Source of the DNA: a virus
IMG/VR virus record: IMGVR_UViG_3300036851_000016
Location: 1 to 62,483 of that record
Length of the DNA stretch: 62,483 nucleotides
Direction: 5' to 3' (one strand)
A program made the translations under genes and the position numbers. A model generated the notes under the pieces. That model saw nothing but the letters and a program-made list of their open reading frames with translations. It ran no database searches and was not told the DNA's origin. Below, one piece after another: positions 1,652 to 62,163 of the stretch (within the stretch, counting starts at the first letter, position 1; the number at the start of each line of letters is the position of its first letter).

Positions 1652-1659
1652 AGGATAAC

Positions 1660-5421: not shown

Positions 5422-5422
5422 T

Positions 5423-7393: not shown

Positions 7394-9024
7394 AGATTGC
7401 ATTGAAGGCATTTAATCAACTATATGTCTCCGCAGAATTAGGTGGGGGTATATATTTTGATAATGGCGAGGCAGTTCATTGTAATAGAGAAGTCCAGAAT
7501 ATATGGGAAGAACTTCAAGAGGTTCTTCTTGCAAATGGAAAGGTAGCTTTCCAAACATATTCTGGTAACTTCCTAACTGCTGAAGATGACAAGATTCATG
7601 TCTCTACTAACAGGGATGCTGTTGGTCCTTGGGAAGAATTTCAATGGATAGGTAAGAAATTAAAGACCCATCATGGAACGTTCCTATCTGCTAGATTAGA
7701 TAAAGAAAATGTTCCACTAGAACAGGTTCCTAATGGAGATATTTGGGAAGATTTCGAGAGAATTCCATTAGAAGTTCCTGTTCCTCCTCCTGGTGATACT
7801 AGAAAAGGATTAGTTCGTGCAGATGGTCGTGCAGTAATTGACGATACAGGTTCATTCCATCCACTTGGACTTACATTCTTCTGGGCACTATTTGGATGGA
7901 AGAATGAGAGAGATAGAATCCATCAACATTTGAGTTGGTTGCGCCAGTTCAAATATGACTATCTTCGTATACTATGTGAAGTCAATTGGGAAGGTCGTAG
8001 TATTGACCCTAATTGGCCTGACTATGAGACTATATTACGTGAGTTCGTAGATACTGCATACGACATTTACGGACTGAGAAGTGAACTAACTCTAGTAGGT
8101 GGCAAATATAAATCTGGCTTAGAACAGAAGGTCAGAAATGCCATGAGTGGAGCAGACCATAAAGTCATTCATTATGAAGTGGCTAATGAGTGGCAGAGAC
8201 TGGATAAAATCACTGAATCAGATATGGTTCGCGTAGGCAAATGGCTGCGCAACAATACTCCTAACTTAGTTGCATTATCTGGAAATGGTGGAATTGGTGC
8301 AATGAAGGATTTAGCTAAACAAGCTGGAACCAACATGCATACATTCCACACGCGCAGGTCATCGCATGATAACTATTGGTCTCATGTCCGACAAGGATAT
8401 GACCTTAAGGAATTTGAAAGTGTAACTTCAAATAATGAACCTCAGGGACCACAATCATCAGTTGCTGAGGATAGTAATCCATTAAGACTATCTATGGCTC
8501 GTGCTACTGGTATAGTCTGTAATGGTGCATTCTACGTTCTGCACGTAGGACAAGGCGTAACTGGTAAAGCTGACCCTAATCATGGTAGACCAGAGAATAT
8601 GTGGGAAGTTCCTAATATTGATTCAATAATGAAAACTGTTAGGGCAATAGATGTTACACTTCCTCCAGGAATTGAGAACTGGCAGGTAGTTAATAACGGT
8701 AGGAGTAATCACCCATTACCATTAGACCCTAGAGTTAATCATCCACAAGGTGGATTCTGGGAAGGTAACGGACCGGGTAGTGTTAATAAGAACTATGCCT
8801 GTATACAAGGCAATAAGTTTGTAATGATTTTGAATGGTGTCAAGAATCCAGTATTTCAAGGAATGACACTATGTGGGACTGCTAGGCAGAATTCTAATAT
8901 CAAGGTGTTTGATATGAGGAATGAAAAAGCGCCTATGCATACTAACGTGAACGCTGGTCAACAATTGTATCTTGAAGGTAGAAACGATACAATGGTGGGC
9001 TACGTTCTACAGGGGAACCTCTAA
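7390..9024 (+). CDS. Fascin-like beta-trefoil plus GH-A clan glycoside hydrolase (depolymerase-like)
   Basis: 544 residues in two parts. Residues ~1-125 contain two trefoil-like units (VAFQTYSGNFLTAE and LKTHHGTFLSARL). After a proline linker (~127-135) comes a TIM-barrel-like glycoside hydrolase: SFHPLGLTFFWALFGW, the acid/base Asn-Glu pair N266-E267 in HYEVANEW, and a candidate nucleophile E350 in SNNEPQG. The C-terminus is a beta domain. It probably cleaves a surface or matrix polysaccharide. Genome B lacks it: there the internal protein is followed directly by the holin gene. Confidence 0.7.
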   Translation: MKIALKAFNQLYVSAELGGGIYFDNGEAVHCNREVQNIWEELQEVLLANGKVAFQTYSGNFLTAEDDKIHVSTNRDAVGPWEEFQWIGKKLKTHHGTFLSARLDKENVPLEQVPNGDIWEDFERIPLEVPVPPPGDTRKGLVRADGRAVIDDTGSFHPLGLTFFWALFGWKNERDRIHQHLSWLRQFKYDYLRILCEVNWEGRSIDPNWPDYETILREFVDTAYDIYGLRSELTLVGGKYKSGLEQKVRNAMSGADHKVIHYEVANEWQRLDKITESDMVRVGKWLRNNTPNLVALSGNGGIGAMKDLAKQAGTNMHTFHTRRSSHDNYWSHVRQGYDLKEFESVTSNNEPQGPQSSVAEDSNPLRLSMARATGIVCNGAFYVLHVGQGVTGKADPNHGRPENMWEVPNIDSIMKTVRAIDVTLPPGIENWQVVNNGRSNHPLPLDPRVNHPQGGFWEGNGPGSVNKNYACIQGNKFVMILNGVKNPVFQGMTLCGTARQNSNIKVFDMRNEKAPMHTNVNAGQQLYLEGRNDTMVGYVLQGNL

Positions 9025-9036
9025 TTGGAGTTAAAA

Positions 9037-9237
9037 ATGCCACAGATTGCATGGAGAATCATTCTCGTCGTAATCGTCGCTGTGTTTCTCACACTACTAG
9101 TTCCACCAGTACTAGGACTATTGGGAATAACTCTAGCGGGTAATGCATATCAAATCATCAAGATTTGTCTTGCATTAATCGCAGTATTCTACATTATTTG
9201 GGGTGGTCCTGTAGCGTTTCCACCTATAAGAAGTTAG
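9037..9237 (+). CDS. Holin-like two-helix membrane protein, 66 aa
   Basis: ATG 9037 was chosen because GGAG lies at 9027-9030 and the B homologue (53790) starts at the same Met; a longer TTG start at 9025 is less likely. Two hydrophobic helices (~residues 6-29 and 41-58) are separated by a short loop (TLAGNAYQ), ending GGPVAFPPIRS. Size and topology fit a class II holin closing the late operon. The DNA is far more conserved with genome B than its neighbours. Confidence 0.7.
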   Translation: MPQIAWRIILVVIVAVFLTLLVPPVLGLLGITLAGNAYQIIKICLALIAVFYIIWGGPVAFPPIRS

Positions 9238-9422
9238 TTCCTTTTTCGCTTTCGTTTGACTGTTAGAGGAGGATTTGCTAAGTCCTTAAATACAATAGCA
9301 AATTCCTCCGCTAACCTTCTCCACTGACGGCACCAGTAAACTGTCTCCTGATAGTTATGGTGCCGTTCACATTTCTGATTAGCTTCCACTTGGTCCAGTA
9401 GTTGTTGTATTGTCCTTACCAT
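9234..9422 (-). CDS. Small basic helical protein, 62 aa
   Basis: Last gene of the leftward operon; its stop overlaps the end of the convergent holin gene by 4 bases. It is helical at the start (TIQQLLDQVEANQ) and has a very basic tail (KRKRKRN). It overlaps the upstream gene by 44 bases. No family was recognised and no B counterpart was seen. Confidence 0.6.
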   Translation of the reverse strand: MVRTIQQLLDQVEANQKCERHHNYQETVYWCRQWRRLAEEFAIVFKDLANPPLTVKRKRKRN

Positions 9423-9921
9423 GTTTAGTCCTTTGCAACTCTGCTAAGAAAGTAATCACAGCTTGTATATCATAAGGATGTAGGTTATTCGCGTGGCGAA
9501 GGAATCTATCTCTCAAGTCACGACTAGTAGTAGAAAATTCCTCTAGTTGAACCTTATTCAAGGCTAAACGACGGTCACGTCTATCAGCCATCCATAGTGC
9601 AGTAATAACAGCTATATCTCTTTCCGTGTCAGCGATGCTTTCATTTGCTGGAGTTTTGTGTGAACGCTCAAGGTTTGCGAGTCTGTATATCTTTTCAGCC
9701 AACCTACCAACGAAACCAGCATCGTCTGGAGAATGAGCAAACAGGCAAGCCAATTGACCTGCAAAGTGATAATTGCCACACGGATTCTCATTGGACGCAT
9801 AATCATGAGACTTCTTATCATGCGTATCAGCCATTTCTTCCAGTAGGGAATAGAAGGTAGGGCTTCCATGTCGTTCATATCCTTTACCATCTGGATACTC
9901 CTTGCTTCTGTAATTGTCCAT
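9379..9921 (-). CDS. Nmad1/DUF1599-like phage protein, 180 aa
   Basis: The conserved part is HGSPTFYSLLEEMADTHDKK, then SHDYAS..NPxGNYHFAG, GFVGRLAEKIYRLANLE and NESIADTERDIAVITALW. The D-Y...G...R..EK..RL......ES..D...D order resembles the nucleotide-modification-associated domain family; this is motif recall, not a search. The B homologue at 53947 keeps the core but lacks the last ~45 residues. Confidence 0.6.
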   Translation of the reverse strand: MDNYRSKEYPDGKGYERHGSPTFYSLLEEMADTHDKKSHDYASNENPCGNYHFAGQLACLFAHSPDDAGFVGRLAEKIYRLANLERSHKTPANESIADTERDIAVITALWMADRRDRRLALNKVQLEEFSTTSRDLRDRFLRHANNLHPYDIQAVITFLAELQRTKHGKDNTTTTGPSGS

Positions 9922-9923
9922 GA

Positions 9924-10091
9924 TTATTTCTCCTTGGTGATGATGATTCTAGACCAGTCATACTTAATGTCACCCATCTGAATTTGAACAATAGTCATGA
10001 CTATATCAGTGTATGATTGAACAATAATCTCGAATGGTGCTTCAAGAGATTGTTCATCAGGTAGGTCTTTGAACAGTTGAATCTTGAACAT
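9924..10091 (-). CDS. Hypothetical protein, 55 aa
   Basis: A short gene found by reading between its neighbours. It starts in a TAATG overlap with the upstream gene and ends just before the next ATG, with an AAGGAG-type site for that gene inside its 3' end. The protein (MFKIQLFKDL...SRIIITKEK) reads as two short beta/alpha units. Function unknown. Confidence 0.6.
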   Translation of the reverse strand: MFKIQLFKDLPDEQSLEAPFEIIVQSYTDIVMTIVQIQMGDIKYDWSRIIITKEK

Positions 10092-10327
10092 TAGCGTTTC
10101 CTTTTCATGAAGAAATCAGGAGTATTCTGATTCTTTGAAATAGAAATTGGACCAAAATAAATTTCGCAATCTACATCATGTAGATGCATATCCATTATTT
10201 CGGCCTTAAACATTTCCGGACTCTCACACTTGATTCTATATACATGACGTGATAGTCCTGCATCACCCTCTACAGCACCTACCATAGAAGTTAGAATCCA
10301 AGCAGTTCCAATGTAGTATTGTTTCAC
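10091..10327 (-). CDS. Conserved hypothetical phage protein, 78 aa
   Basis: It begins MKQYYIGTAWILTSMVGAV, and contains a His/Asp-rich middle (MDMHLHDVDCEIYFG) and a basic tail. It is strongly conserved in genome B (54485-54754), where the start is further upstream. Function unknown. Conservation in otherwise rearranged flanks suggests a core early role. Confidence 0.7.
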   Translation of the reverse strand: MKQYYIGTAWILTSMVGAVEGDAGLSRHVYRIKCESPEMFKAEIMDMHLHDVDCEIYFGPISISKNQNTPDFFMKRKR

Positions 10328-10482
10328 TAGTCATCTCCCTCTTGTGCGAGCATGGGGTCATAGGACCGTTTACAGAGTGGACACTTATCGTCCTTCCAAT
10401 TTTTTGCGGGGGATTCTTCCTCGCAAAATTGACACTTGTATGTCAATACTTCCTTCGGTTTCTTAGTTGACTGCTTACTCAT
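10327..10482 (-). CDS. Small zinc-ribbon protein, 51 aa
   Basis: ATG 10482 was chosen because GGAG lies just upstream and the previous gene ends at 10484. Two Cys pairs (CQFC and CPLC), spaced like a zinc ribbon, sit in a lysine-rich protein with an acidic end. One of many small zinc-binding proteins in this operon; it probably binds nucleic acid or a host protein. Confidence 0.7.
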   Translation of the reverse strand: MSKQSTKKPKEVLTYKCQFCEEESPAKNWKDDKCPLCKRSYDPMLAQEGDD

Positions 10483-10483
10483 A

Positions 10484-10756
10484 TTAGCTCCATACACAAT
10501 CCATGCAGATGAATGTGGCTGCATTACCCACAAATCCAGTAAGTTTATCCTTACCACATTTAGTGCATTTCATTAACTTCTTATTGTCGGGGTCGTATCC
10601 CCTTCTATTTCTAATATCATTCATGAAGGAATCTTTCCTTACATTTTCAGTATTGCCATATCTATCTCTAGGTGGCATATCCCAACTACCTTCATAGAAT
10701 GGCCTTCTATTCTGAGCTTCCTGTTGTCGGCGCTGCCTAAACATTTCTTCAAACAT
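10484..10756 (-). CDS. Zinc-finger protein, C-terminal ORF of a probable frameshifted gene
   Basis: 90 residues from ATG 10756, ending with CTKC...CMDC, a zinc-ribbon end. The same frame stays open upstream to ~10931 with protein-like sequence (PGTWEGFRPTQKQ) but no start codon. One base removed from the T6 run at 10923-10928 (A6 on the coding strand) would fuse it to the 52-residue ORF at 10884-11042, giving a protein of ~186 residues with a Cys pair at each end. Confidence 0.6.
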   Translation of the reverse strand: MFEEMFRQRRQQEAQNRRPFYEGSWDMPPRDRYGNTENVRKDSFMNDIRNRRGYDPDNKKLMKCTKCGKDKLTGFVGNAATFICMDCVWS

Positions 10757-10883
10757 TTCATCAGTAAAGATAGGATTTCCTGCACCCGATGGAGGTTTAG
10801 ACTTAAATTCTGGTTCAGGACTTCTACGAACATCATTCCATGTTCTTGCTTGATTGTGGAAATCCTGTTGTTTCTGAGTAGGT

Positions 10884-11042
10884 CTAAATCCTTCCCATGT
10901 TCCAGGTTGAGAACGGACTAAGTTTTTTATTTCTCAATCCTAAATCATGATGGATGTATCGTTCGCCTGATTCAGTATGTAGCCATAGCTCATACCAACC
11001 ATTACATCTTGAACATTTGTGTTCAGTGATATGGAAACTCAT
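10884..11042 (-). CDS. Zinc-finger N-terminal ORF of a probable frameshifted gene, 52 aa
   Basis: It starts in a TAATG overlap with the MazG-like gene. It carries one Cys pair (HKCSRCNGW) and histidines in YIHHDLGLRNK. After the A6 tract the frame loses its protein-like character and stops at 10884, while the +1 frame continues sensibly into the next ORF. Either an indel in a homopolymer, transcript slippage, or ribosomal frameshifting would join them. Confidence 0.55.
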   Translation of the reverse strand: MSFHITEHKCSRCNGWYELWLHTESGERYIHHDLGLRNKKLSPFSTWNMGRI

Positions 11043-11425
11043 TAGTTACCTTCTAGTATCTTACGTTCATTATCGAGGTTACGATTTAATGCATCATATT
11101 CAGTAAATCTATTAGGAAATCGAGCGCGAAGTTTCTCGATATTCCTATCTTGTGCTTCATCAGCAGTATAGTTACATGCAGTTTCAAGTAGTGAAAGATA
11201 CCATCTAAGGTCGCCATCTTCTTCTATGATGTTAGTGAAATCCAACGGCTTACCATAGATGAGATGCTTCTTCAGTTGGTCCATTAGTTCACCACATTCA
11301 GTAGTAATCCCCATCAATGCATGGAGAATGATTAGTGTCTGTCTATTGTCCAGCCTATTAGAGATTGGAACATAGGTTGGAACGTCAGTAGTCTTACACT
11401 GTTCTCTGTATTCCTCATTTGTCAT
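11042..11425 (-). CDS. MazG-like nucleotide pyrophosphohydrolase, 127 aa
   Basis: Start 11425 lies in the ATGA overlap with the upstream gene. The metal-binding pattern of the all-alpha NTP pyrophosphatases is visible: two Glu in ITTECGELMDQ, then Glu/Asp in EEDGDLRWYLSLL. Such enzymes hydrolyse (d)NTPs and may sanitise the nucleotide pool or lower alarmone signals. Genome B carries a different MazG-like family in the equivalent position (55156). Confidence 0.75.
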   Translation of the reverse strand: MTNEEYREQCKTTDVPTYVPISNRLDNRQTLIILHALMGITTECGELMDQLKKHLIYGKPLDFTNIIEEDGDLRWYLSLLETACNYTADEAQDRNIEKLRARFPNRFTEYDALNRNLDNERKILEGN

Positions 11426-11688
11426 ATTGAATACTCCCAAGGAAATGGTTTCCATTCTGGTGGTCTTGGTGTTTTACAGTAGAAACATTGTTTCACCCTG
11501 CCATGCCACTTTAATCCTTTAGTCCACTTACCATTACAAGTGCATATCCAGGATGGACAGTTATCGAATAGTGCTACTCTACGATGGTCCTCATAAGGAG
11601 TCAGTCCAAAGGGTGGCTTATAGACTAATACCTTCTTTTCCTCTACTATTGGTTCATATTCAATAGTGGGAGGACCAATTAGAGGCAA
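11422..11688 (-). CDS. Small zinc-finger protein, 88 aa
   Basis: The N-terminus is proline/tyrosine-rich. The C-terminal half is aromatic with four Cys in a CPSWICTC ... CFYC arrangement like a RanBP2-type finger, ending PPEWKPFPWEYSI. The genome B protein at 55521 has the same layout with little identity. Partner unknown; zinc binding is inferred from the Cys spacing. Confidence 0.65.
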   Translation of the reverse strand: MPLIGPPTIEYEPIVEEKKVLVYKPPFGLTPYEDHRRVALFDNCPSWICTCNGKWTKGLKWHGRVKQCFYCKTPRPPEWKPFPWEYSI

Positions 11689-11919
11689 CTATTCATTCCT
11701 CGCAATCGCTGCATTAGCCCACATCACACAATCTTCCAACTGTGTGAATGCTACTGACTGTTCACGCGAAGCAGGAGTTTCTTCGTTGATAAGTATTGCT
11801 AATTCCCTAGCCTTATCACGAATACGCTCATATCTTTTCGCTTGGTCATTCTTGGGAGCGTGATATGTGAAATTGTTAGCAATTCGCGCTGCATTCTGTC
11901 CATTCTCATACATTGTCAT
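11689..11919 (-). CDS. Acb2/Tad1-like hairpin-domain protein (anti-CBASS/anti-Thoeris candidate), 76 aa
   Basis: The core NNFTYHAPKNDQ followed by a helical hairpin containing PASREQSVAFTQLEDC and VMWANAAIARN matches the short helical-hairpin family that includes Acb2 and Tad1. Known members bind cyclic (oligo)nucleotides and sponge the signals of CBASS or Thoeris. AGGAGT precedes ATG 11919. The B copy at 56182 keeps the hairpin. Identification is by motif recall; ligand specificity cannot be inferred. Confidence 0.7.
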   Translation of the reverse strand: MTMYENGQNAARIANNFTYHAPKNDQAKRYERIRDKARELAILINEETPASREQSVAFTQLEDCVMWANAAIARNE

Positions 11920-13210
11920 TGTTCCTACTCCTTTGTTTACCAGCCATGAATTGTTTAAGTTCTGCTACGTGTTCATCAGGCATCTCGTAGAGAATCTGAT
12001 TACCTACTGAACTAGTCTTGATTATTCCAGCAGCGTCAAATCCCTGCATTAAGTTATCAAATTCTTCAGGACTTTCATAATGCATCCACATCTTCTTCAT
12101 TAAGATAGGTCTGGATACGCTATGAGGTTCCCTGTTTAATAGTTCTAGGATAATCATGGTCTTAAGCTGAGCAGATTGACTTATACCCTGCTTACCAAGT
12201 GTAGTCTTACGAACATTACCTAATAGTTTCTCACAATCAGTAATCGCACTACGCATTGCATTCTCAGTTATGACTAGTCTAGGATGCTCAGCCAGTGAAA
12301 GTAACATAGCTACCTTTAATACTGAAGCATCGAATCTATTCATAGTTCCAGTATCATCCTTATTATTCACGTCCTTTTTCATTATAGAAAATTCTTCATA
12401 CCAGTCATCGAATATTAGTCCTACTTCATTGAACCAAATCTCTCTATTACCTTTCTTGCCCTTCTTGATTTTCTTCCAACGATAATCATCTGTTTTCTCA
12501 CTAACTGCGAGGGGCTTAAAAGGTCCACTTAACTTGGCTATTTCTTTCAGATAGTCAGCTACTCCCTTGTAATTGATTTCACTTTCAAGTGGATATATGA
12601 GAGAATTAACCTTATCGGATTCCTTCTCATATACAATGAAAGTTCTGGCGAAGTAACCACCCTGAATAGCAGACTTAGTAAAAAAGTCATCTGACATTGC
12701 TTCATTAGTGGCCGTTAACATTGTGATGGTTGGGTCTTTAAGAGTGAATGTTTCTTGCTTCAACAATGAACGCCATTCACCCTCATTGTAAATTCTATCA
12801 TAAAGGTCAGTGAGAATTTTGGTTGCAACTTTATCCTCTACGATAGATGATGACAATTCAGACGAACAGATAAATGCAACCGATTTGGATTGTATCTTTC
12901 CACCCGGTTGTGTAAATGCTGTTCCTAGTTCTTTCAGGATTCCTTGTATGGAACCCCTACCTGTAATTACACGAGTATTGTTCACCAACGTAACGAGTTT
13001 CTTAGCCATGTTAACTGGTGGACCCTTCTTTAATCCAGAGTCCGCGTGAAACATGGTGTAGATGTTAGGATATAGGTTGAATATTTGTTGATTCAACCAA
13101 ACTTGGTCCTTAACAACTGCTGAAATAGTCGTTATCGCCGACCATTTCCAGAAACTCTCAGGTGATTCTAACTCATGATGCAGGTCAACTATTTGTTGGA
13201 CCCAATTCAT
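11906..13210 (-). CDS. DUF3987-type replication (helicase/primase-associated) ATPase-like protein, 434 aa
   Basis: The N-terminal half carries the features of DUF3987 proteins: SPESFWKWSAI, a P-loop-like GLKKGPPVNMAKKLV, RGSIQGILKELG, and a Walker B-like SVAFICSSELSSS. The P-loop lacks the canonical GKT, as is common in the family. The C-terminal part is a winged-helix-like region (RPILMKKMWMHY). Position next to the polymerase points to replication. It is well conserved with 56419-57711. Confidence 0.75.
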   Translation of the reverse strand: MNWVQQIVDLHHELESPESFWKWSAITTISAVVKDQVWLNQQIFNLYPNIYTMFHADSGLKKGPPVNMAKKLVTLVNNTRVITGRGSIQGILKELGTAFTQPGGKIQSKSVAFICSSELSSSIVEDKVATKILTDLYDRIYNEGEWRSLLKQETFTLKDPTITMLTATNEAMSDDFFTKSAIQGGYFARTFIVYEKESDKVNSLIYPLESEINYKGVADYLKEIAKLSGPFKPLAVSEKTDDYRWKKIKKGKKGNREIWFNEVGLIFDDWYEEFSIMKKDVNNKDDTGTMNRFDASVLKVAMLLSLAEHPRLVITENAMRSAITDCEKLLGNVRKTTLGKQGISQSAQLKTMIILELLNREPHSVSRPILMKKMWMHYESPEEFDNLMQGFDAAGIIKTSSVGNQILYEMPDEHVAELKQFMAGKQRSRNNDNV

Positions 13211-13379
13211 CCTTAATCCCGTCCATTACAAAGAATTTACTTACATCAGTAATGAGTGGCTTTCCACAAGCCTTACACTTAGCATCAGACTCATCACTGA
13301 CTACAGTTTTCTTGTAATCATTACACTTCTTCCAGTCACAGAATAGTTCTCTTGGCTTTAGATTAAAATGGGATGTCAT
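13185..13379 (-). CDS. Small zinc-finger protein, 64 aa
   Basis: ATG 13379 lies inside the end of the upstream gene (17-base overlap); genome B uses the equivalent ATG (57871). Four Cys (LFCDWKKC and KCKACGK) form a likely zinc ribbon. It overlaps the DUF3987 gene start by 26 bases. It may be a cofactor of polymerase or helicase, judged only by its place between them. Confidence 0.65.
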   Translation of the reverse strand: MTSHFNLKPRELFCDWKKCNDYKKTVVSDESDAKCKACGKPLITDVSKFFVMDGIKDELGPTNS

Positions 13380-13566
13380 CGTAGTCAATGTGGTCTGTTT
13401 TAACCTCATCTATTAATTTGCGGTGTAAGGATGCGATGACTATGTTGAACTTAGTCAGCAACTCAGTGAGTGATTTAGCTTCTATTACATCATGAGATAT
13501 AACATCCCAATCAGAAGCATCACTCTTGTAGTTAAGTGTTAGGATGAATTGTCTTTCTTTAGTCAT
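13363..13566 (-). CDS. Small protein with SSB-type C-terminal tip (DYDDIPF), 67 aa
   Basis: A small non-OB protein that ends exactly in DYDDIPF. Bacterial SSB ends in a D-D-D-I-P-F tip that docks many repair and replication proteins. The B homologue (57852) diverges in its body but ends in DDDIPF, so the tip is the best conserved feature. The gene sits directly behind the polymerase with an ATGA overlap. Inferred role: an adaptor recruiting host SSB-interacting proteins. Confidence 0.75.
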   Translation of the reverse strand: MTKERQFILTLNYKSDASDWDVISHDVIEAKSLTELLTKFNIVIASLHRKLIDEVKTDHIDYDDIPF

Positions 13567-16232
13567 ACTTCAAAGTCCCTGTAAGTTTTCTTGCGTTCCT
13601 CAGCCTCATATACCATTGAATCGAATTTGGTATCTTGAGGTAATGTATCCGCGAGGAATGCTTCAGTTACATTCTTAGGTGGCATCTTTAGTTCTTGCTT
13701 AGGTGCAGCAATGATTGGTAAGTCCTTGAATTTCTTCAAGTCTTTATAATTCTTACCAGTTTCAATGTCGCATGGTATAGCTAATGGAGAACGTGGTAAT
13801 GAACACTTAGAGAAATCAATTGGACGCTCCATTTCTTCCTTGATAATGGGAGTCCATATCAATAACTTAGATATTGGAATGCTGAACAAGAGTGCGTCAT
13901 GAGATTCCATGACAATCTTAATGGTAGGTATTCGTTCCCTAATCCTCAATGCTGCTGCTTTAGTGTTATCAGATACAGCGCGCTGAGGTAAGTAAGAGAA
14001 TCCTTGCCTAAACAGTTCTTCACCATATCGTTCGTAGAATGTTCTCCTACCCCCACATGGAGCATCGATACCATATGGTAATGGTGCGATTAAAGTCCTA
14101 CTTTTCTTCAAGCATTCAATTACTTCTGCCTGAAAGACTCGTTGTATCTTGGGTTGTTTCGCGTGAAATATCTGTAATGCTCGTTCTGCGATTGCCTCTG
14201 TAATGGCAATTGGAATCTTGTATTTACGTGCTTGGGTATTTAACTCAATACTAGCGCGGCGTTTACCAGCGCCCAAATGACCAGCATGACGTAATGTCTT
14301 ACCGGCAAATCGTATTGGATGCTCATATCCCAACACTTTTTTAGAATAATCACGTTCACTACCACCGAAAAACCAAGAAGCAGTCCATGCATGGTAGTCA
14401 ATTTCATCCACCAATCTTAATGCTTCTTCATCATTAGCTAGTTTCCAAACTACTCTAGCTTCAGCCTGACTACTATCTGCTTGGACGAATACTTCTTCTT
14501 CCATTAGATAGTAGTGTTCGTTATTGATTATCTCAATATGGCAATCATCAGGGATATACATACCACGTATATCAGCACCAATGTCACCATGTTTGGTCAT
14601 GGTTTGGAAAGCAGTTCCTAAAACTTTATCTTTCTTCTTTCCATTCTCATCTACTACTTCGACAGAGGGTCGTATAGGGGGGTCTTGCTGTCCTGTTGAG
14701 GTTCTACCTGTATCCAAACAAGGGAAATAGGTAGTCCGCATACGTCTATCATAGTCTGGGAGAGCCATAAGATAAGTGCTGATACTTTTCCGCACTCTAC
14801 GGTCTTCCAATATAAGCTCACAGATTCTACGGTGGGATTCTGGTCGCTTCGCCCACACAGTAGTCGAGTTAAGCAAAGCAGTAATATCTTCTTCCCCTGT
14901 AGTATCTTTCTTAGGGAACTTAAGGTTCTCCCAAAGGAGAAGGGCAATTTGCTTTGGTGAATTAACATTGATTTCTGTTCCTGTTAGTTGATACAATTCG
15001 TATCTACATTTCTCATCCCATTCAATGTATTTACGAATTAGTTTATCGCGTTCTTCATCATCTACCTTGAAACCTTGACGCTCTATATCCCAATAGAGGT
15101 TAGGTAACTTCATGAGGAAGTTTTCAAAGAATTCTCGTTGACCCAATTCGTCAACGTCAGAATCCATATTCTCATCTACCTCAAATGTTACACAAGCGTC
15201 TCGTCCACATCCGTTGAGTAAATCTTGTATGCTTCCATGATACATACCTTCATCTTTATAGAACGGTTCTTCTGTGAAGATAGATGTATTGAAGCCCAAG
15301 TTTTTAGGAAGCTCCGGATTGATTGCGTGAGCCTTGAGCATAATATCCGAGACGAGCTTACGGATAATAAACCCAAGTCTCTTGAGCTTATCTCTATCGT
15401 AATTAAAATTCTGCCCGATGATGAGCTTTTCATATAGAATCTCCGCGAGGATAATCCAAACTTGAACTAGGTCTGCATCTGGAATTGTAGATATACCGTC
15501 CACATTCCAGAGTGGAACTACCATCGCATGATTTCTACTAAGCGCGAGTCCCACGCACACTGGTATACAAGTTCCATTGGCTTCAATATCGACAGCCATA
15601 CGTAACTTATCTTTATACCTAGCACGGAACTCAGCGAGATGCCATGAACCTTTACAAATTTCAATTGTGCGTTGTGGTAGAAGTAATTCAGGAAAGCGAG
15701 ATTGTATTGCAGCACGCTTGAAATCGAATATCATTACCTGTCGATTCCAATATCCCTTAATCTCTCCACCAGAAGATTGGTGTAACAGGTGAGCAGGATG
15801 GTATGATGGAACAAACTTAGTTCCCATACCATGCATGATGGAACCGCGATATGAGCCTATCTTAGTCTTACCAGATAATGCCCATAACGCCGTGCCACCT
15901 AATGCTAGAATACAATTAGGTTTAATTCCATTTATTTCTTCTTGTAATTCGCGAAGCTGCGCCTCTATATCAATGCCATGATTCTTAGCTCTAACCGCGA
16001 AAGGAATCTTTTTACCTGGTAAATTGGGAGGCACTTCATACTTACAGACGTTAGTTATCCAACAGTTCTGACGCCTAATTTCGGAGTCATATAATAGTCT
16101 ATCTAGTTCTTTCCCAGATGGTCCTACGAACGGCTTACCAGCAGCAGTTTCTTGATATGATGGCGCCTCACCAAGTATCATTAACTTGGCACCCATAGGA
16201 CCATGACCGGGGACGTAAACGTGTTCACTCAT
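13563..16232 (-). CDS. Uracil-DNA glycosylase / 3'-5' exonuclease / family A DNA polymerase fusion, 889 aa
   Basis: Residues ~1-195 are a family 4/5-like uracil-DNA glycosylase with GEAPSYQE (21-28), GKPFVGPSG (32-40) and HPAHLL (145-150). Residues ~205-350 are a DnaQ-like exonuclease with DIE (215-217), NFNYD (275-279) and D345. Residues ~380-870 are a Pol I-type polymerase with motif A DSSQAEAR (D586), motif B R641-K645 and motif C HDA (778-780). All catalytic Asp are present. Motif B has His where F/Y/L is usual. The fusion suggests removal or sensing of uracil coupled to copying. Confidence 0.9.
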   Translation of the reverse strand: MSEHVYVPGHGPMGAKLMILGEAPSYQETAAGKPFVGPSGKELDRLLYDSEIRRQNCWITNVCKYEVPPNLPGKKIPFAVRAKNHGIDIEAQLRELQEEINGIKPNCILALGGTALWALSGKTKIGSYRGSIMHGMGTKFVPSYHPAHLLHQSSGGEIKGYWNRQVMIFDFKRAAIQSRFPELLLPQRTIEICKGSWHLAEFRARYKDKLRMAVDIEANGTCIPVCVGLALSRNHAMVVPLWNVDGISTIPDADLVQVWIILAEILYEKLIIGQNFNYDRDKLKRLGFIIRKLVSDIMLKAHAINPELPKNLGFNTSIFTEEPFYKDEGMYHGSIQDLLNGCGRDACVTFEVDENMDSDVDELGQREFFENFLMKLPNLYWDIERQGFKVDDEERDKLIRKYIEWDEKCRYELYQLTGTEINVNSPKQIALLLWENLKFPKKDTTGEEDITALLNSTTVWAKRPESHRRICELILEDRRVRKSISTYLMALPDYDRRMRTTYFPCLDTGRTSTGQQDPPIRPSVEVVDENGKKKDKVLGTAFQTMTKHGDIGADIRGMYIPDDCHIEIINNEHYYLMEEEVFVQADSSQAEARVVWKLANDEEALRLVDEIDYHAWTASWFFGGSERDYSKKVLGYEHPIRFAGKTLRHAGHLGAGKRRASIELNTQARKYKIPIAITEAIAERALQIFHAKQPKIQRVFQAEVIECLKKSRTLIAPLPYGIDAPCGGRRTFYERYGEELFRQGFSYLPQRAVSDNTKAAALRIRERIPTIKIVMESHDALLFSIPISKLLIWTPIIKEEMERPIDFSKCSLPRSPLAIPCDIETGKNYKDLKKFKDLPIIAAPKQELKMPPKNVTEAFLADTLPQDTKFDSMVYEAEERKKTYRDFEV

Positions 16233-16423
16233 AACTTGTCGTAAATCTTCTCTAGTATTTCACATTGTCTGTCACTCAAATTACCGCGTGACACATATTG
16301 TGATTTGATTGATTCGACAAAGTTATGTTCCCATTCAGTTAGCAAATCTTCCTTTGCATTTTCACATTCATCAATCATTCTTTCAATGATTGGTTTTCTT
16401 AGTGTTGGGTCAGTTGGTATCAT
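16229..16423 (-). CDS. Small helical protein, 64 aa (split-off domain)
   Basis: It begins in an ATGA overlap with the 57-residue zinc protein and ends in an ATGA overlap with the polymerase. The motif WEHNFVESIKSQY...LSDRQCEILEKIYDK matches the C-terminal half of the 150-residue B protein at 60926 (WETKFIEDM...LTETQEKKLESIY). In genome A this domain is a separate gene. Function unknown. Confidence 0.7.
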   Translation of the reverse strand: MIPTDPTLRKPIIERMIDECENAKEDLLTEWEHNFVESIKSQYVSRGNLSDRQCEILEKIYDKL

Positions 16424-16593
16424 TTGCTTTTACACTCTCCACAAACAACAGTTCGATGCAATAATCCGGGTGTAGCTATTGCATCTCGCCATTCTTTACC
16501 ACATTTAGGACAAGTGTGCCAAGTTTCATTCTCAAATCTCAGCACTGTTAATGGAATAGTAACATCATCTTCCTTGGCGAACTTCCTTGCCAT
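16420..16593 (-). CDS. Small zinc-finger protein, 57 aa
   Basis: A short gene read directly from the sequence, starting ATG 16593 after an AAGGAG-like stretch. It has CPKC and CGEC pairs with HRTVV between. The B counterpart at 60742 has CPKC and CEEC around HRTII, confirming that it is coding. The stop overlaps the next ATG. Likely a zinc ribbon acting near the polymerase. Confidence 0.75.
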   Translation of the reverse strand: MARKFAKEDDVTIPLTVLRFENETWHTCPKCGKEWRDAIATPGLLHRTVVCGECKSK

Positions 16594-16696
16594 CCTTAAC
16601 TCTCCTTATCCAATTCCAAATCTGCCAGCATTTCCAGCATTGTGTAGTTGGAGGATGAGTAGCGTCATAGTCAGGATGTGATTTACATTTATTCAT
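16565..16696 (-). CDS. Tiny zinc-finger protein, 43 aa
   Basis: It starts in an ATGA overlap with the HTH gene and overlaps the next gene by 29 bases. It begins MNKCKSHPDYDATHP and carries a CWKCWQIW motif, so Cys/His ligands for one zinc are plausible. There is no B counterpart, because the two flanking domains are fused there. Coding status rests on the overlap and the Cys/His pattern. Confidence 0.55.
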   Translation of the reverse strand: MNKCKSHPDYDATHPPTTQCWKCWQIWNWIRRVKDGKEVRQGR

Positions 16697-16944
16697 TTGT
16701 AACCATTCAGTTTCTTAATAGCGTCCTGTCTGGTTTCACATTCAAGCATCTTAGGATTGATATGTATTGCGAGGGCTAATCGCAAATTTTCAGACACCAA
16801 TCCTATGCTAACACCAAAACTTTCTGCTGTTCTAGTGATAGTCCAGTTCTTAGACCTAGTGGACATGGCAAGGTGATAGATTTCCATAACCATCACCTTA
16901 CCGTGCCATGTAGTCTCAGAGTTATATCGTTCTACGAATGTCAT
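16693..16944 (-). CDS. HTH protein (ParB/KorB-like helix-turn-helix), 83 aa
   Basis: After ERYNSETTWHGKVMV the protein has a clear helix-turn-helix: WTITRTAESFGVSIGLVSEN followed by LRLA. The B protein (60926) has the same HTH and runs on into an extra C-terminal domain. It is a possible regulator or origin-binding protein of the early operon. It starts in a short overlap with the cold-shock gene. Confidence 0.75.
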   Translation of the reverse strand: MTFVERYNSETTWHGKVMVMEIYHLAMSTRSKNWTITRTAESFGVSIGLVSENLRLALAIHINPKMLECETRQDAIKKLNGYK

Positions 16945-17279
16945 CCCGCATTGAACCCATCAGCGGGATTATTCTTAGGGTCAAGAACTCTAATCTTAAT
17001 GGCTCTCCACCCCTTATTCTCAAGTTCAATGGGAGTAAATTCTACTTTCATCCCATTCTTTAACTGTGGGAATCTGAGAGTGTCTTGCCTAAGAGACGAC
17101 CAATGGAAAAAGATACGAGTGAACTTAATATCCTTAGAGGATATAAATCCCCACCCCGCATCAGAAACTTTGATGATTTTGCCTACTACCCTCTTATCCT
17201 CAGGCTTAATAGGCGTAGTGTCTACTTCAGTTGGTGCCGCTTCTTTGTCGAAGAATTTCTCAAATGGATTGTTCATCAT
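16941..17279 (-). CDS. Cold-shock-domain protein, 112 aa
   Basis: ATG 17279 was chosen because GAGG lies 5 bases upstream and it aligns with the B start; a longer TTG frame would run through the leader hairpin. A ~35-residue Pro/Glu-rich arm precedes a cold-shock domain with VVGKIIKV, GWGFISS (RNP1-like) and RIFFHWSSL (RNP2-like). It likely binds single-stranded nucleic acid. The leader holds a conserved hairpin (17315-17350). Confidence 0.8.
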   Translation of the reverse strand: MMNNPFEKFFDKEAAPTEVDTTPIKPEDKRVVGKIIKVSDAGWGFISSKDIKFTRIFFHWSSLRQDTLRFPQLKNGMKVEFTPIELENKGWRAIKIRVLDPKNNPADGFNAG

Positions 17280-17314
17280 TCTGTCCTCTATTGAACGCGA
17301 AGTTAATGTTATTG

Positions 17315-17350
17315 GAGTGTCTGCCAAGCACTCATTTAGTAAATGGGCAG
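17315..17350 (-). ncRNA. Conserved 5' leader hairpin with possible pseudoknot
   Basis: On the minus strand CTGCC (17350-17346) is followed by a hairpin GAGTG-CTTGGCAGA-CACTC, whose loop contains GGCAG, the complement of CTGCC. Genome B (62111-62142) has GAGCAT-ATGGCAG-ATGCTC with the same CTGCC/GGCAG pairing. Two stem pairs change in a compensatory way (T-A to C-G, G-C to A-T). It lies ~35 bases before the cold-shock gene and is probably a cis-regulatory RNA. Confidence 0.6.
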
Positions 17351-17358
17351 TAAATGGC

Positions 17359-22350: not shown

Positions 22351-24537
22351 TTATAATGTGGCCGCAGCAGTGATGTTAGTCTTAACTTCAGCTTTACCCT
22401 TCTTTACTTTCTTAACCTGATGTTTCTTGACGATTAAAGCAGCTAAAGCTTTCGCGAAGTCTGTCTCATTCCAACGTGGAACTTTACCCTTGTTCATTAC
22501 AATGTGATAACGTCCACGCTTTTCTTCTACTATCTGGTCTAATTGCTGGTCTATTGTTCCATCAGCCTCAGGCAATGTGATGTTAATAGTCTTAGCAACT
22601 TGACCAATACGTCTAAATCTACCGGGTGTAGCTTGGTCCTCATTCTGTGGATTCCACTGTCTCTCATGAAGGATACTATCTGCGCAGGTTTGCAGGTTTA
22701 ATCCTTCACCACAAGCCAGTGTAGATGCAATCATAATGCAGCGTTTAGTTGCATTAAATTGCTCTTGAATGTCATAACCTTCAGGTCTACCAGTGTGTGC
22801 TGATGTATACTGGAATATCCTGATTCCTTGTGCTTTTAATTCCTGTGCTAATTCATACCAATCAGGATTGGATTCCTTATCAGTATTAATCAGTGCATTG
22901 TGCATCAATTGCCCAACGTCTTTATGATGCACGAATACGACTAATTTCTTATCAGTATCTTCAATAAATTCCTCAATGAATCCTAATGTTGCAGGAATCT
23001 TAGCGAGGCCCGTAATATGACGCATACGAGCCATTTTCGCGAGGATTTCTATACCAGATACCTTATCTTCCTCTCCATTGATTACAAACTCATTATACCA
23101 TTTGACGAAATCCGATACTGAATCATCGTATGTATCTTGACTCAGTTCGTCTAACTGAACTGGCATTCTCATACGATTAATATCAGGAAATTCGTCCATT
23201 ACTTCTTCGTATTCTCTACGAATGATAATGTTTGAGGTATACTCCCTGAACTTCTGTGGGTTTCTAATTCCACCCATCTTACGCTTATTACCCTCATAAT
23301 AATATTCCACCCAATTATCAAGATATGCTTGATTGGAATGGAATTTAATGGGGTCAATAAGATTGAGTGCTGGAAAGAATTCTCCGCCTCTATTCTTCCA
23401 AGGTGTTCCTGATAGTTCTAATACCTTACAATCAGTATTAGCTCCAATCAGTTTTCTAACTTCCTGTGTTCTAGTTGAGTCAACATTCTTAATCTGTTGA
23501 ACTTCATCTAGAATTACTAACTTGAATCCAACCTTAATCAATTTCTCGCGTGGGAATCTACGCAACAGGTCATAAGGTATGATGTATACCTTTAGACCGG
23601 GCATAATGTAATCTTTAGAAGTGGAAATGATTTGTCCAATGAAATCTGGTCCAAGCCATCTAACAGCCTGTTGGAACCATTGGAATTTAATAGCAGACTT
23701 GGTTACAATGAGTGTTGGTGTGTATTTCTTATGATGATATTTGAGAATCGCGAGTCCTTGCACTGTTTTGCCAAGACCCATATCATCAAATATACCTACA
23801 CCTTTTTGCATTGCTAGACCAGTCTCAGCGAATCTAGCACCTATTACTTGGAAGTTGTAGAGTTTGAATTCTCCGCACTTATCACACTGATTCTTAGTCC
23901 AAGTGTGCTTACAATTCTTAACTTCTGGTTTCCAATCATTAGACACCATAGATTCAAATGGTGTGCCCTTAGGTATGACCTTCTTAATGATATGGAAACA
24001 TTCAAGAGTAATCAGTTTAATCTGATTACCTTCTTTATCTACAGACTCAATTGCGAATTTTTCGATTGCAGTTTTACCACACTCAGGGCATTTATCCTGT
24101 AATCTAGTTACCTTGTGTGTGACATTACGCACAACCTGTTCAATAACCTTTTCCTCTACCACAACCTCTACTGTATGCCCACTACGAATAGCATCAATAA
24201 CATGGTCAGGGAGTGTAAGGTTAGAACAAGGTGATGCTACATAGCATCCTAATTCCCTAGCTTTAGTAGCCCATACTTCATTATGACCTTGACCCGGACA
24301 TAATGCGTGAGCTACTTCGTGATAAATTGTATTGACAACATCCTTAACCGGATGAATGTCAATGTGATGGGCATTAAGCATTATGCATTTATCCTTATAC
24401 ATGCATAAGCCTAAGAATGGTAGGTTAGGGTCAGATGTTAATCTAACCTTCCATTCATGTAATCCATTATCATTCAGAACCTTGCGCGTTAAATCAGCCG
24501 CGCCTTTACGGTCCATAATGGTTTCACTGTTAGTCAT
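22351..24537 (-). CDS. SprT-like metalloprotease / zinc ribbon / SNF2 helicase fusion, 728 aa
   Basis: Residues ~1-110 form a SprT-type domain with HEVAH (73-77) and a further ligand H85 in GQGHNEVW. Zinc-ribbon Cys follow (CPEC 150-153; C209, C218, C221). The SNF2 helicase begins ~225: motif I DMGLGKT (252-258), motif II DEVQ (344-347), motif V GEGLNLQT (~610) and motif VI RFRRIGQ (641-647). All key residues are present. SprT/Spartan proteases cut DNA-protein crosslinks and SNF2 motors move on dsDNA, so repair or clearing of proteins from phage DNA is inferred. Confidence 0.85.
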   Translation of the reverse strand: MTNSETIMDRKGAADLTRKVLNDNGLHEWKVRLTSDPNLPFLGLCMYKDKCIMLNAHHIDIHPVKDVVNTIYHEVAHALCPGQGHNEVWATKARELGCYVASPCSNLTLPDHVIDAIRSGHTVEVVVEEKVIEQVVRNVTHKVTRLQDKCPECGKTAIEKFAIESVDKEGNQIKLITLECFHIIKKVIPKGTPFESMVSNDWKPEVKNCKHTWTKNQCDKCGEFKLYNFQVIGARFAETGLAMQKGVGIFDDMGLGKTVQGLAILKYHHKKYTPTLIVTKSAIKFQWFQQAVRWLGPDFIGQIISTSKDYIMPGLKVYIIPYDLLRRFPREKLIKVGFKLVILDEVQQIKNVDSTRTQEVRKLIGANTDCKVLELSGTPWKNRGGEFFPALNLIDPIKFHSNQAYLDNWVEYYYEGNKRKMGGIRNPQKFREYTSNIIIRREYEEVMDEFPDINRMRMPVQLDELSQDTYDDSVSDFVKWYNEFVINGEEDKVSGIEILAKMARMRHITGLAKIPATLGFIEEFIEDTDKKLVVFVHHKDVGQLMHNALINTDKESNPDWYELAQELKAQGIRIFQYTSAHTGRPEGYDIQEQFNATKRCIMIASTLACGEGLNLQTCADSILHERQWNPQNEDQATPGRFRRIGQVAKTINITLPEADGTIDQQLDQIVEEKRGRYHIVMNKGKVPRWNETDFAKALAALIVKKHQVKKVKKGKAEVKTNITAAATL

Positions 24538-24770: not shown

Positions 24771-25550
24771 TTAACCCTCAGATTTAGCTGCTGCGATACT
24801 CTTTTTAATAATCTCAGCGGCAGCCTCAACAGTTACGCCTTTAGCTACAACAATCTGTTGTAACATAAATTCGCTTATGCCTAGTTCAGTTGCATACTTC
24901 TTTAATGCAACCTTATCAATCTTCTTACTAGCGGGTTTTGCGATAGGTGCGAGTTTTGGCTTGGAAGGTTTAATTGCTGATGGATTGTAGTTAATATCAG
25001 CAATCTTGAGTTTTTCACGTTCTTCCTTGCGTAATTCATTTGCAAGGTTATTCATGTAGACTTGAATGCTACGAATTCTATTATTCGCGTCTACAATCTT
25101 TTCTTGTGACTGGAAGATAACATCCTTGAAATGTGATAAATCCTTCAGAAGATGTTCTGCGAGTGCGTAGGGTTTATTGGTAATTTCAGGGTTATCATCG
25201 ATTGTTTTCTTAACATCGATAATCGCCATAGTTCCTGCATTGAATACATCAGTGCGAACTTCTATGGCATCGTTTATCTTGCGAGCTTCATCAAGTAATG
25301 CAGCTTGTGCATTAAATGATTTCTCGCGAGTAACCATCTGACCATTACCGTCATTACCTACAGGTTCGATTTTCAGATTAGATTCGCGCGTCCAACATTC
25401 TGCACACATGAGAATATTACCATATCGGATTTCAACAGGACCGATATTAGGGCAAGTCTCACATTGTGCCTGTTCTGTATGTGCTAACATTGGATACTTG
25501 CACTTAGCACACTTATCAGAGCCAATACCAGCAATGAATGGATGATTCAT
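24771..25550 (-). CDS. Zinc-ribbon plus coiled-coil protein, 259 aa
   Basis: The N-terminus holds CAKC, CETC and CAEC pairs in the first ~55 residues. A long helical/coiled-coil region follows (~75-190), then a Lys/Pro linker (PSKPKLAPIAKPASKK) and a C-terminal helical domain. First large gene of the leftward operon. A DNA-binding replication or regulatory role is plausible given the origin-like region just upstream, but this is inferred. Confidence 0.65.
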   Translation of the reverse strand: MNHPFIAGIGSDKCAKCKYPMLAHTEQAQCETCPNIGPVEIRYGNILMCAECWTRESNLKIEPVGNDGNGQMVTREKSFNAQAALLDEARKINDAIEVRTDVFNAGTMAIIDVKKTIDDNPEITNKPYALAEHLLKDLSHFKDVIFQSQEKIVDANNRIRSIQVYMNNLANELRKEEREKLKIADINYNPSAIKPSKPKLAPIAKPASKKIDKVALKKYATELGISEFMLQQIVVAKGVTVEAAAEIIKKSIAAAKSEG

Positions 25551-25742: not shown

Positions 25743-25829
25743 TATGTCCACTTATTTGGACATACACTTGGCACACTACATACTGCAAGACTCAGACCAA
25801 CTACTAATAGTGTCCACTTTTGAGGACAC
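25743..25829. promoter_or_regulatory. Two related operator-like palindromes
   Basis: TATGTCCA-cttatt-TGGACATA (25743-25764, perfect) and GTGTCC-acttttga-GGACAC (25810-25829, perfect) share TGTCCACTT. Their centres are 66 bp apart, upstream of the first leftward gene. They look like binding sites of a dimeric repressor or activator controlling the operon. Confidence 0.6.
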
Positions 25830-25860
25830 CACAAGCTGTAGTGTATGATTACAGTTTTGT

Positions 25861-25912
25861 TGTGGTATTTTTACCTCATGTGTGGTAATTTTACTACAGC
25901 ATTTTTACCACA
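25861..25912. repeat. Three TGTGGTA iterons
   Basis: TGTGGTATTTTTACC at 25861 and TGTGGTAATTTTACTACA at 25881 are direct repeats 20 bp apart (two helical turns). A third, inverted copy ends at 25912 (TGTGGTAAAAATGC on the minus strand). They are likely protein-binding sites next to the origin-like dyad. Confidence 0.65.
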
Positions 25913-26006
25913 GCGAATGGAAGGCGAAGATAATATTATAGTTTCGCTTTCTCACACTTATAATTCATTACCCTTATCAGAGTTATATTATTTTCACTTC
26001 CGACCT

Positions 26007-26061
26007 GATTCTAAGCAGATTCTAACCACATTCTAAGCGGATTCTAAGCGGTTTCCAACCA
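26007..26061 (+). repeat. Left 11-bp repeat array (five units)
   Basis: Five tandem 11-mers, consensus GATTCTAAGCG, the last one degenerate (GTTTCCAACCA). The period is about one helical turn, so all sites face the same side of the DNA, as expected for cooperative initiator binding. Confidence 0.85.
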
Positions 26062-26351
26062 ACTTTTTCGGCCTAAGTCGCTCTGCCTGAGTCACTTAGC
26101 CTTACCCCTAAGAGAGAGGGGGAGGGTGCCTATAACACTCAGACCGTCCTATGCAGGTGACACTATGTAGGGGTAGGGTTATATTATTATATATTATTAA
26201 AAAAAAAAAAAAAATAAAAAGAGAATACCTAAACCCACCTGAGCGGAAGTGTCCTCAGTCTAGGACGGTCTAACTCCCATAGGCAGGGGGGGACTCTCTG
26301 AGAGGGGTAGAGCTAAGTCTATGTCAGAGAGTCACTTAGGCCGAAATCGTC

Positions 26352-26406
26352 GGATAGAAACAGGTTAGAAACCGTATAGAACACGGATAGAAACTGGATA
26401 GAATCC
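26352..26406 (-). repeat. Right 11-bp repeat array (five units, inverted)
   Basis: Five tandem 11-mers, consensus GGATAGAAACN, which are the reverse complement type of the left array (TTCTA core). Same length (55 bp) and same distance from the dyad axis as the left array. Confidence 0.85.
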
Positions 26407-26462: not shown

Positions 26463-26560
26463 CTAGCGAAAGTGTTTTGACTAATATTGTTGTTGGATTA
26501 GGGAAAAGAGACTTCGCGCACGCGCGAACGATAACTGTTGGATTAGTGAATAGGGGAAAT

Positions 26561-26581
26561 GAGGGGGATTATCTCCCCCTC
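26561..26581 (-). terminator. Hairpin overlapping the stop of the 57-aa gene
   Basis: GAGGGGGA-ttatc-TCCCCCTC, 8-bp GC-rich stem and 5-base loop; the stop codon lies in the loop. The following minus-strand sequence is only weakly T-rich (ATTTCC), so termination is plausible but not certain. It would insulate the origin region from the leftward unit at 27142. Confidence 0.5.
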
Positions 26582-26742
26582 CGAATCTTGTAGTGTTTCT
26601 TGCAGTATTCAGACCATCCCTTTAATCCATAATTACGGATGGCGTCTAATTCTCCTGATGTAGTGAGAGTCATATCCTGAGACTTTTTCATCGCGAGTAA
26701 TTGCGATAGTCTCAATTCCATTTGCGCCTGAGTTTTATCCAT
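26569..26742 (-). CDS. Small protein, 57 aa
   Basis: AGGAG precedes ATG 26742. The protein is an N-terminal helix (KTQAQMELRLSQLLAMKKSQ) with a Trp/Tyr-rich basic end (GLKGWSEYCKKHYKIRRGR). Second gene of the short leftward unit starting at the TTGACA promoter. Function unknown. Confidence 0.6.
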   Translation of the reverse strand: MDKTQAQMELRLSQLLAMKKSQDMTLTTSGELDAIRNYGLKGWSEYCKKHYKIRRGR

Positions 26743-26797: not shown

Positions 26798-27142
26798 TTA
26801 CGCCTGCGACGCTGCGAGCAATGCCTCAACCTGCTTACGTGCAGTTTCCTCTGAGACACCAAGGCGGATATAGTCGCGGACCATACGCTCCTTAATATCT
26901 TCCGGGGAAACTTCCGACGGACGATACGGAAGCAATGCGGCCTGATAGGCATTACTACGCGCGTTAGCCTTCAGGTTATCGTTAACCATATTAACGATAT
27001 TCCACTTTTTCTCAGTAATCACTGAGAGTGCTTCCGCCTCACTTGATACCTGAGGATAATCGAAAGTCTTTTCGATTTTCTCTCCGGCCTGAGGATGACC
27101 GTCCGGGACTGCGAAACTGAATTTTCCTACTAGTGTCTGCAT
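26798..27142 (-). CDS. Early small protein, 114 aa
   Basis: AAAGGAG precedes ATG 27142. It begins MQTLVGKFSFAVPDGHPQAG, followed by helices with charged residues. It lies next to a consensus-like leftward promoter, separate from the main leftward operon, so probably an immediate-early gene. Base composition is more GC-rich than its surroundings. Family not recognised. Confidence 0.7.
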   Translation of the reverse strand: MQTLVGKFSFAVPDGHPQAGEKIEKTFDYPQVSSEAEALSVITEKKWNIVNMVNDNLKANARSNAYQAALLPYRPSEVSPEDIKERMVRDYIRLGVSEETARKQVEALLAASQA

Positions 27143-27211: not shown

Positions 27212-27389
27212 GCTATTTTTTCGGTGTTTTCTCCTTTCCCTTTCCGCCGAGTTTCGCGAGTAGTTCAGCGTATCGCGTGTCTGTCATGACCATACATAAA
27301 GCATAAGCCATACCACTAGCGAACCTATAATATTATAACGCTAAGTCCTTTGTTATCAACAACTTACCTTTATGTAACCATCCTAATTA

Positions 27390-30272: not shown

Positions 30273-30284
30273 TGATGATTGAGA

Positions 30285-47913: not shown

Positions 47914-47922
47914 GAGGATAAC

Positions 47923-56415: not shown

Positions 56416-56418
56416 CTC

Positions 56419-62073: not shown

Positions 62074-62110
62074 TACTTCACTCCTGTTTAGAAAGTAGTT
62101 GATGTTATTG

Positions 62111-62142: not shown

Positions 62143-62163
62143 TCATTTCAAAGTAGCATCCCA

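Follow-up and report, generated by a model that had tools for sequence, protein, structure and literature searches.

Iteron origins typically contain phased iterons and an AT-rich opening region (PMC5043065). In the phage lambda ori and in iteron plasmids, repeated initiator sites, which are helix-phased in the plasmids, stand beside an A+T-rich opening region; there is one array, on one side of that region, and the repeats measure about 19-22 bp (PMC5043065). A mirror-symmetric plan is seen in HSV oriS, where inversely oriented initiator boxes surround an AT-rich spacer within a palindrome; the boxes are single, and the initiator UL9/OBP is an SF2 helicase (PMC12543377). In Sulfolobus oriC1, a cellular chromosomal origin, the inverted initiator sites ORB2 and ORB3, one per side and bound by Orc1-1, flank a highly AT-rich potential unwinding element (PMC12141716). 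The RepA_N-type origins of the PLE satellite and pSK41 are iteron origins with a poly-A feature, which lies inside each semi-palindromic iteron (PMC7145576).

The window analyzed here is the whole of the IMG/VR virus record IMGVR_UViG_3300036851_000016 (62,483 nucleotides), which holds a podovirus-like phage of ~46.3 kb and 16 kb of a second, related phage. Positions 1-17351 and 46275-62143 are homologous at ~70-90% DNA identity; their opening 250 bp are ~98-99% identical, and identity then drops to ~78%. Because of the near-identical starts and this drop, the contig appears to close one 46.3-kb genome and to run on into a relative, and its sequence indicates that the window (1-62483) is probably an assembly chimera of two related phages. 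The phage belongs to a clade of ~46-kb, circularly assembling, podovirus-like bacterial viruses, which were found in metagenomes only, mostly from soil. One scan of GTDB genomes returned no relative of the window phage, and a phage collection contained no close cultured relative, cultured phages having distant homologues only (terminase <35% identity). No Rfam family and no tRNA were found in the window.

Early genes fill the interval from ~27.1 kb down to 9.4 kb and are oriented leftward; late genes point rightward from ~28 kb on, with the terminase at 30279. The leftward block encodes the replication genes of the phage: a DUF3987 protein (PHROG DNA primase), UDG-PolA, a Sak4-like protein, a PD-(D/E)XK nuclease and a SprT-SNF2 helicase. 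In UDG-PolA (13563-16232), Pfam hits show a uracil-DNA glycosylase domain as an N-terminal fusion to a family A DNA polymerase, and a second copy at 58073-60742 was recognized by its sequence likeness to the first. The SNF2-type helicase (22351-24537) carries the SprT-like domain as a fusion.

No gene of convincing size lies between 25732 and 26569, and this gap contains a symmetric dyad. The sequence-only reading had called the dyad origin-like. Its anatomy, its conservation, the covariation of its arms within a genome and its least stable core support that likeness; that the dyad is in fact the bidirectional, iteron-type replication origin of the clade is our preferred reading of these sequences, with a probability of about 0.6. 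An iteron-type origin fits because the phage has replication genes of its own and, in a noncoding gap, phased arrays that face a readily melting core. The location between divergent early and late arms, which had also been claimed, is not exact: the dyad has leftward ORFs on its right, at 26569-26742 and 26798-27139, and is inside the leftward block ~1 kb left of the switch, and the true divergence is at ~27.2-27.98 kb. The features of the locus and the candidate proteins are as follows.

16693-16944, minus strand: small HTH protein, 83 aa, predicted to fold like ParB/KorB; may bind the 25-bp box.
24771-25550, minus strand: zinc-ribbon protein, 259 aa, fast-evolving; first large gene left of the dyad.
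26007-26061, plus strand: left array, five 11-bp direct repeats with the core TTC-Y (GATTCTAAGCN type); best 11-bp-periodic segment genome-wide.
26074-26098, unstranded: left palindromic box, 25 bp, TAAGTC-N13-SACTTA.
26146-26163, unstranded: left GTCC...GGTGACAC element, a degenerate palindrome in the box-core interval.
26178-26221, plus strand: AT-rich core, TATATTATTATATATTATTA-A16-TAAAAAG; lowest duplex stability of any 50-bp window genome-wide, with the A run on the late-coding strand.
26250-26266, unstranded: right TGTCC...GGAC element in the core-box interval.
26314-26338, unstranded: right palindromic box, 25 bp, TAAGTC-N13-SACTTA.
26351-26405, minus strand: right array, five 11-bp repeats with the left-array motif reverse-complemented; second-best 11-bp-periodic segment genome-wide.
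26513-26528, minus strand: hairpin resembling a terminator of leftward transcription, located between the dyad and the genes to its right.
26798-27139, minus strand: conserved 113-aa protein, right of the dyad.
27342-27366, unstranded: third 25-bp box, overlapping the -35 of the region's best leftward promoter-like site (27359-27332).

The units of the left array are GATTCTAAGCA, GATTCTAACCA, CATTCTAAGCG, GATTCTAAGCG and GTTTCCAACCA, and those of the right array, reverse-complemented, are GATTCTATCCA, GTTTCTATCCG, TGTTCTATACG, GTTTCTAACCT and again GTTTCTATCCG. The two inverted arrays of five repeats, as first read from the sequence, were also reported by an independent repeat finder and by TRF, both of which detected the long inverted repeat of the dyad as well. 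The arms 26007-26151 and 26261-26405 are complementary without gaps at 100 of 145 positions, exactly the number counted earlier by hand. The axis, claimed at 26206, was computed at 26206.0, close to the midpoint (26206.5) of the A16 run at 26199-26214, and the core, described as AT-rich, contained 91% A+T over 26176-26221. The gapless dyad score at this axis was 60, compared with 17 for the highest-scoring unrelated axis elsewhere in the 62 kb and with maxima of 13-17 in shuffled windows (n = 20), which places the dyad far beyond chance.

Several smaller elements lie nearby. Terminator-like hairpins are a weak signal, since two were found in the region against 1.9 expected by chance. To the left of the dyad, a hairpin-like sequence, GGCGAAGATAATATTATAGTTTCGC, occupies 25918-25950, and L015, L111 and L114 have similar sequences on the same side of their dyads. 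Between the dyad and the early genes, three near-copies (TGTGGTATTTTTAC, TGTGGTAATTTTAC and ATTTTTACCACA) at 25856-25917 are possibly operators. Perfect TGTCC-N8-GGACA palindromes occur at 25745-25762 and 25811-25828, upstream of the left early genes; the pattern TGTCC-N6-12-GGACA has three matches in the window against 0.33 expected. TGTCC/GGACA-like elements stand beside the core in many relatives, array-less ones included, and the GTCC...GGTGACAC element recurs in many relatives by visual impression.

When the window dyad is folded as a single DNA strand, pairing extends over almost its whole length (z = -9.35), and most relatives give z between -3 and -9.5. Such values would be expected if the dyad acted as a folded single strand, a long hairpin or cruciform, with the complementarity of its arms under selection. 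We consider this very unlikely: several relatives pair in the arrays only and leave 250-350 bp unpaired between them, the fold of L164 has no arm-to-arm pairs, and what is conserved is directional repeats and boxes at fixed spacing, whose inverted order alone yields hairpin potential.

Relatives were collected by a terminase search of viral contigs, of which 80 were kept, and by further searches with the 113-aa neighbor, the helicase and the HTH protein, which gave 54, 66 and 61 loci, respectively, on partly overlapping contigs. In many relatives, a dyad scan detected an element of this kind, placed 3-5 kb upstream of the terminase, and 21 full dyads were aligned on the A tract and analyzed. 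From the outside inward, they consist of five 11-bp repeats, the 25-bp box, often a block that is C-rich on the left and G-rich on the right, a TGTCC...GGACA-type element and then the AT-rich core, typically TATAATATTAT-A15-25-TAAA. The inner edges of the arrays lie at -150 (sd 19) bp on the left and +139 (sd 12) bp on the right of the A-tract midpoint. Sites in opposite orientation around an AT-rich center, the plan of the HSV and archaeal origins, were found in 21/21 dyads, and an initiator would presumably bind them. Period 11 was the best in 22/22 loci, with a mean unit identity of 0.73 compared with 0.37-0.45 at other periods.

We also scanned whole genomes for any 11-bp-periodic segment, unsupervised and blind to the position of the dyad. 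Of 17 near-complete genomes, 12 had the facing arrays as their top two segments, 296-428 bp apart around the AT-rich core where both lay on one side of the contig end. With this genome-wide detection at period 11, the arrays are tandem direct repeats spaced by about one helical turn, as in iteron origins. The scan also caught the arrays of G001, G017 and G025, which the A-tract search had missed because their core run is shorter or absent; in G017 and G025 the arrays are present and the A run is short or lacking. The periodicity scan found no 11-bp arrays in G013, G018, G019, G020 and G024 (5/17), which retain the A-tract core. The missing arrays of these five genomes count against the origin reading, as does the fact that no known initiator gene was recognized. 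Two more distant relatives, at L070:4370-4905 and near position 162 of G020, have ACATGTAA-like motifs around an A tract and no 11-bp arrays.

Among 261 loci (3.3 Mb), there were 29 period-11 pairs on 22 distinct contigs, and 28 of the 29 were inverted-similar. No pairs were obtained at periods 10, 12, 13 and 14, while period 8 gave 3 pairs and period 9 gave 14, two of them inverted-similar. The sequence-only reading had proposed to search related genomes for the dyad and had named a lack of conserved repeats as part of its refutation; paired inverted 11-bp arrays are present in 22 other related contigs (21 inverted-similar at the cut-off used), and the repeats are conserved in relatives. Such strong conservation indicates that the dyad is under selection.

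The 11-mer itself varies among the phages, as TTCTAAGC, TTTCCTGT, TTTCTTGGC, TTCTGTGA, ATCCCAAGT and others. In the pooled profile, the sole constant letter is the C of TTC, which is partly built in, as the profiles were aligned on TTTC. The left array resembled the right array of its own genome with a similarity of 0.65, compared with 0.51 for the right arrays of other genomes, and none of 20,000 permutations was as high. The right arm was closer to the left as its reverse complement in 21/21 dyads. Since the arms covary within a genome, they would share a putative binding protein that changes its specificity, and the sequences point to one protein that reads both arms while its specificity drifts. 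Gene conversion between the arms could add to their likeness.

The 25-bp box, TAAGTC-N13-GACTTA, is held at fixed spacing, with exactly 13 bp between the half-sites in 19/21 left and 20/21 right arms. The small HTH protein is present in 11/11 genomes with a box near the core, and also in G017; it is absent from G018, G019, G020, G024 and G025, and these five have no box. This co-occurrence owes part to shared ancestry, and the protein is a candidate binder of the box. Its AlphaFold model is all-helical (mean pLDDT 91), and the nearest solved folds are ParB, Spo0J, KorB and Noc; the best Z scores were 7.6 to Spo0J (rmsd 3.0, 79 residues) and 7.0 to KorB, values that a shared arrangement may be enough to produce and that do not by themselves prove kinship. 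Sequence searches with the HTH protein gave no matches to known families. The window has a second copy at 60926-61378 (150 aa) with a fused C-terminal part. The HTH and C-terminal parts are separate genes in some phages (16693-16944 and 16229-16423) and one fused gene in others, such as G004, L096:7018-7464 and the second window copy.

No gene was strictly array-specific by co-occurrence, and the HTH gene correlates more closely with the 25-bp box than with the arrays. The zinc-ribbon protein (24771-25550), which was present in 17/17 genomes compared, is an alternative candidate for the site-binding protein. The 113-aa neighbor was considered as a known DNA-binding fold and rejected, as its model, of moderate confidence (pLDDT 75, pTM 0.33), had no significant PDB match. 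Pfam and PHROGs revealed no known initiator family among the main early genes, and nothing resembling a lambda O or Rep initiator gene was recognized.

The third box at 27342 overlaps the -35 of a leftward promoter match of 11/12, and G004, G013 and G023 likewise have box-like sequences ~1 kb rightward of the core. Judged from these sites, one regulator touching both the early promoter and the dyad is the simplest reading, and given the overlap of the third box with an early promoter-like site, at least one component of the dyad may also be regulatory. The whole locus could be a transcriptional control region rather than an origin, with the arrays and boxes as operators for early and late timing and the AT-rich core as a promoter, which would accord with the ParB/KorB-like HTH of the candidate protein, KorB being a transcriptional repressor, and with a TATAAT-like sequence that adjoins the A tract in many relatives. 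We regard this explanation as rather unlikely, since mirrored five-fold phased arrays around the least stable DNA exceed the usual needs of an operator, the promoter-like match in the window core is only 10/12 (26157-26185), and the arrays occur at the dyad only and are absent from other transcription start regions.

The AT-rich core matches the easily melted neighbor of iterons. In a nearest-neighbor stacking calculation for 16 genomes, no 50-bp window was less stable than the core in 11 of them, and in three more the core ranked among the lowest three. In every terminase-oriented locus, the A run belongs to the late-coding strand, so the mirror symmetry is broken at the center in a constant direction. 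The lowest duplex stability is thus established for the dyad, together with its anatomy, its conservation and the intragenomic covariation of its arms.

Many contigs terminate at or close to the A tract: contig ends lie inside or near it in L012, L049, L073, L074, L119, L128 and L156 and at ends of G013, G014, G015 and G021. In G014 and G021 the A tract is repeated at both contig ends, and the two runs of G021 differ in length. Physical genome ends at the A tract were ruled out by the overlapping ends and the differences in A-run length, and it seems that slippage or length polymorphism of the A run breaks the assemblies. With assemblies apparently breaking in the A run, several records represent complete genomes opened at the putative origin. 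G016, G017 and G020 circularize elsewhere through 127-bp overlaps, which is probably the k-mer size.

These contig ends, and the position of the dyad in a noncoding gap ~4 kb upstream of the terminase, might suggest a packaging site (pac/cos-like) or a segregation site (parS-like), that is, a nucleoprotein handle near the terminase genes; the ParB-like fold predicted for the candidate HTH protein (best Z 7.6, to Spo0J) would suit the latter. We hold this to be improbable, because assembly accounts for the contig ends (G014, G021, G016, G017 and G020) and the ParA ATPase (PF13614) of a ParABS partition system was found in 0/9 genomes, while 14/14 controls were positive. A recombination site was weighed in the same genomes. 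A lambda-type attP has arm-type direct repeats around a core, and the outline of the dyad resembles this arrangement by analogy. The integrase search covered the tyrosine family (PF00589), which was found in 0/9 genomes with 14/14 positive controls. A resolvable telomere requires a self-complementary center, and the center of the dyad, A16, is not self-complementary, which argues against a protelomerase site. We give either form, an attP or a telomere-resolution site, almost no credence.

A change of GC skew at 26.2 kb had been suggested as a check of the origin reading. The skew does change near the dyad, and the cumulative minimum lies 54 bp from it in G003, 81 bp in G008 and ~1.4 kb in the window; the change, however, follows gene orientation. 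At four-fold sites, the skew did not separate the genes on the two sides of the dyad and gave no replication signal beyond gene direction. GC skew was therefore discarded as evidence for an origin.

Returning to the dyad as an iteron-type origin, we infer protein binding, melting, origin activity and bidirectionality, and the following mechanism is proposed. A sequence-specific protein, perhaps the phage initiator, would occupy a row of five 11-bp sites on either side; with a spacing of about one helical turn, all sites of an array would be on nearly one face of the DNA, and the two arrays would face each other across the core. The 25-bp boxes between array and core, bound perhaps by the ParB/KorB-like HTH protein, may contribute to the architecture of the complex or couple it to early transcription. 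The strain from bending and binding would then melt the AT-rich core with its A tract, and owing to the two-fold symmetry a pair of replication complexes could be loaded in outward-facing orientation, so that replication would proceed in both directions. The phage-encoded DUF3987 primase/helicase-like protein, the UDG-PolA polymerase and the SNF2-type helicase would be the available machinery.

If the origin reading is true, an uncultured phage clade gains a defined start point of DNA replication, with a simple marker, namely two facing 11-bp arrays around the lowest-stability window. The symmetric loading of two forks would also become testable in a small replicon. With arms that change together in each genome and differ among relatives, the clade offers a natural experiment on how a putative DNA-binding protein co-evolves with ten copies of its site. 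The dyad may further represent a new class of phage origin in a metagenome-only clade, two-fold symmetric and bidirectional, with facing five-fold 11-bp arrays that change in step and an initiator of an unrecognized family; we advance this tentatively, as a proposition with somewhat less than even odds.

The sequence-only reading knew of no described origin with this exact plan. That statement holds for the exact plan: no paper on the clade or on the array-plus-inverted plan was found in the open literature, most subscription papers being outside the search. It does not extend to the general layout, as inverted sites around an AT-rich center are known (PMC12543377; PMC12141716). With the lambda ori and the iteron plasmids the dyad shares repeated sites beside an easily opened region, and it departs from them in having two mirror-image 11-bp arrays, the AT-rich core between the arrays, and palindromic boxes. 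With HSV oriS it shares the inverse orientation of sites around an AT-rich spacer, although oriS has no five-fold arrays and belongs to an unrelated virus. Inverted sites around a potential unwinding element also link it to Sulfolobus oriC1, whereas the dyad has five repeats per side in place of one ORB. In contrast to the RepA_N-type origins, it has one central A tract between the arrays. If the origin reading is true, the dyad would be a phage example of the herpesvirus and archaeal mirror-symmetric plan; by analogy, it combines the iteron building block of lambda and the plasmids with the inverted-site plan of HSV and Sulfolobus.
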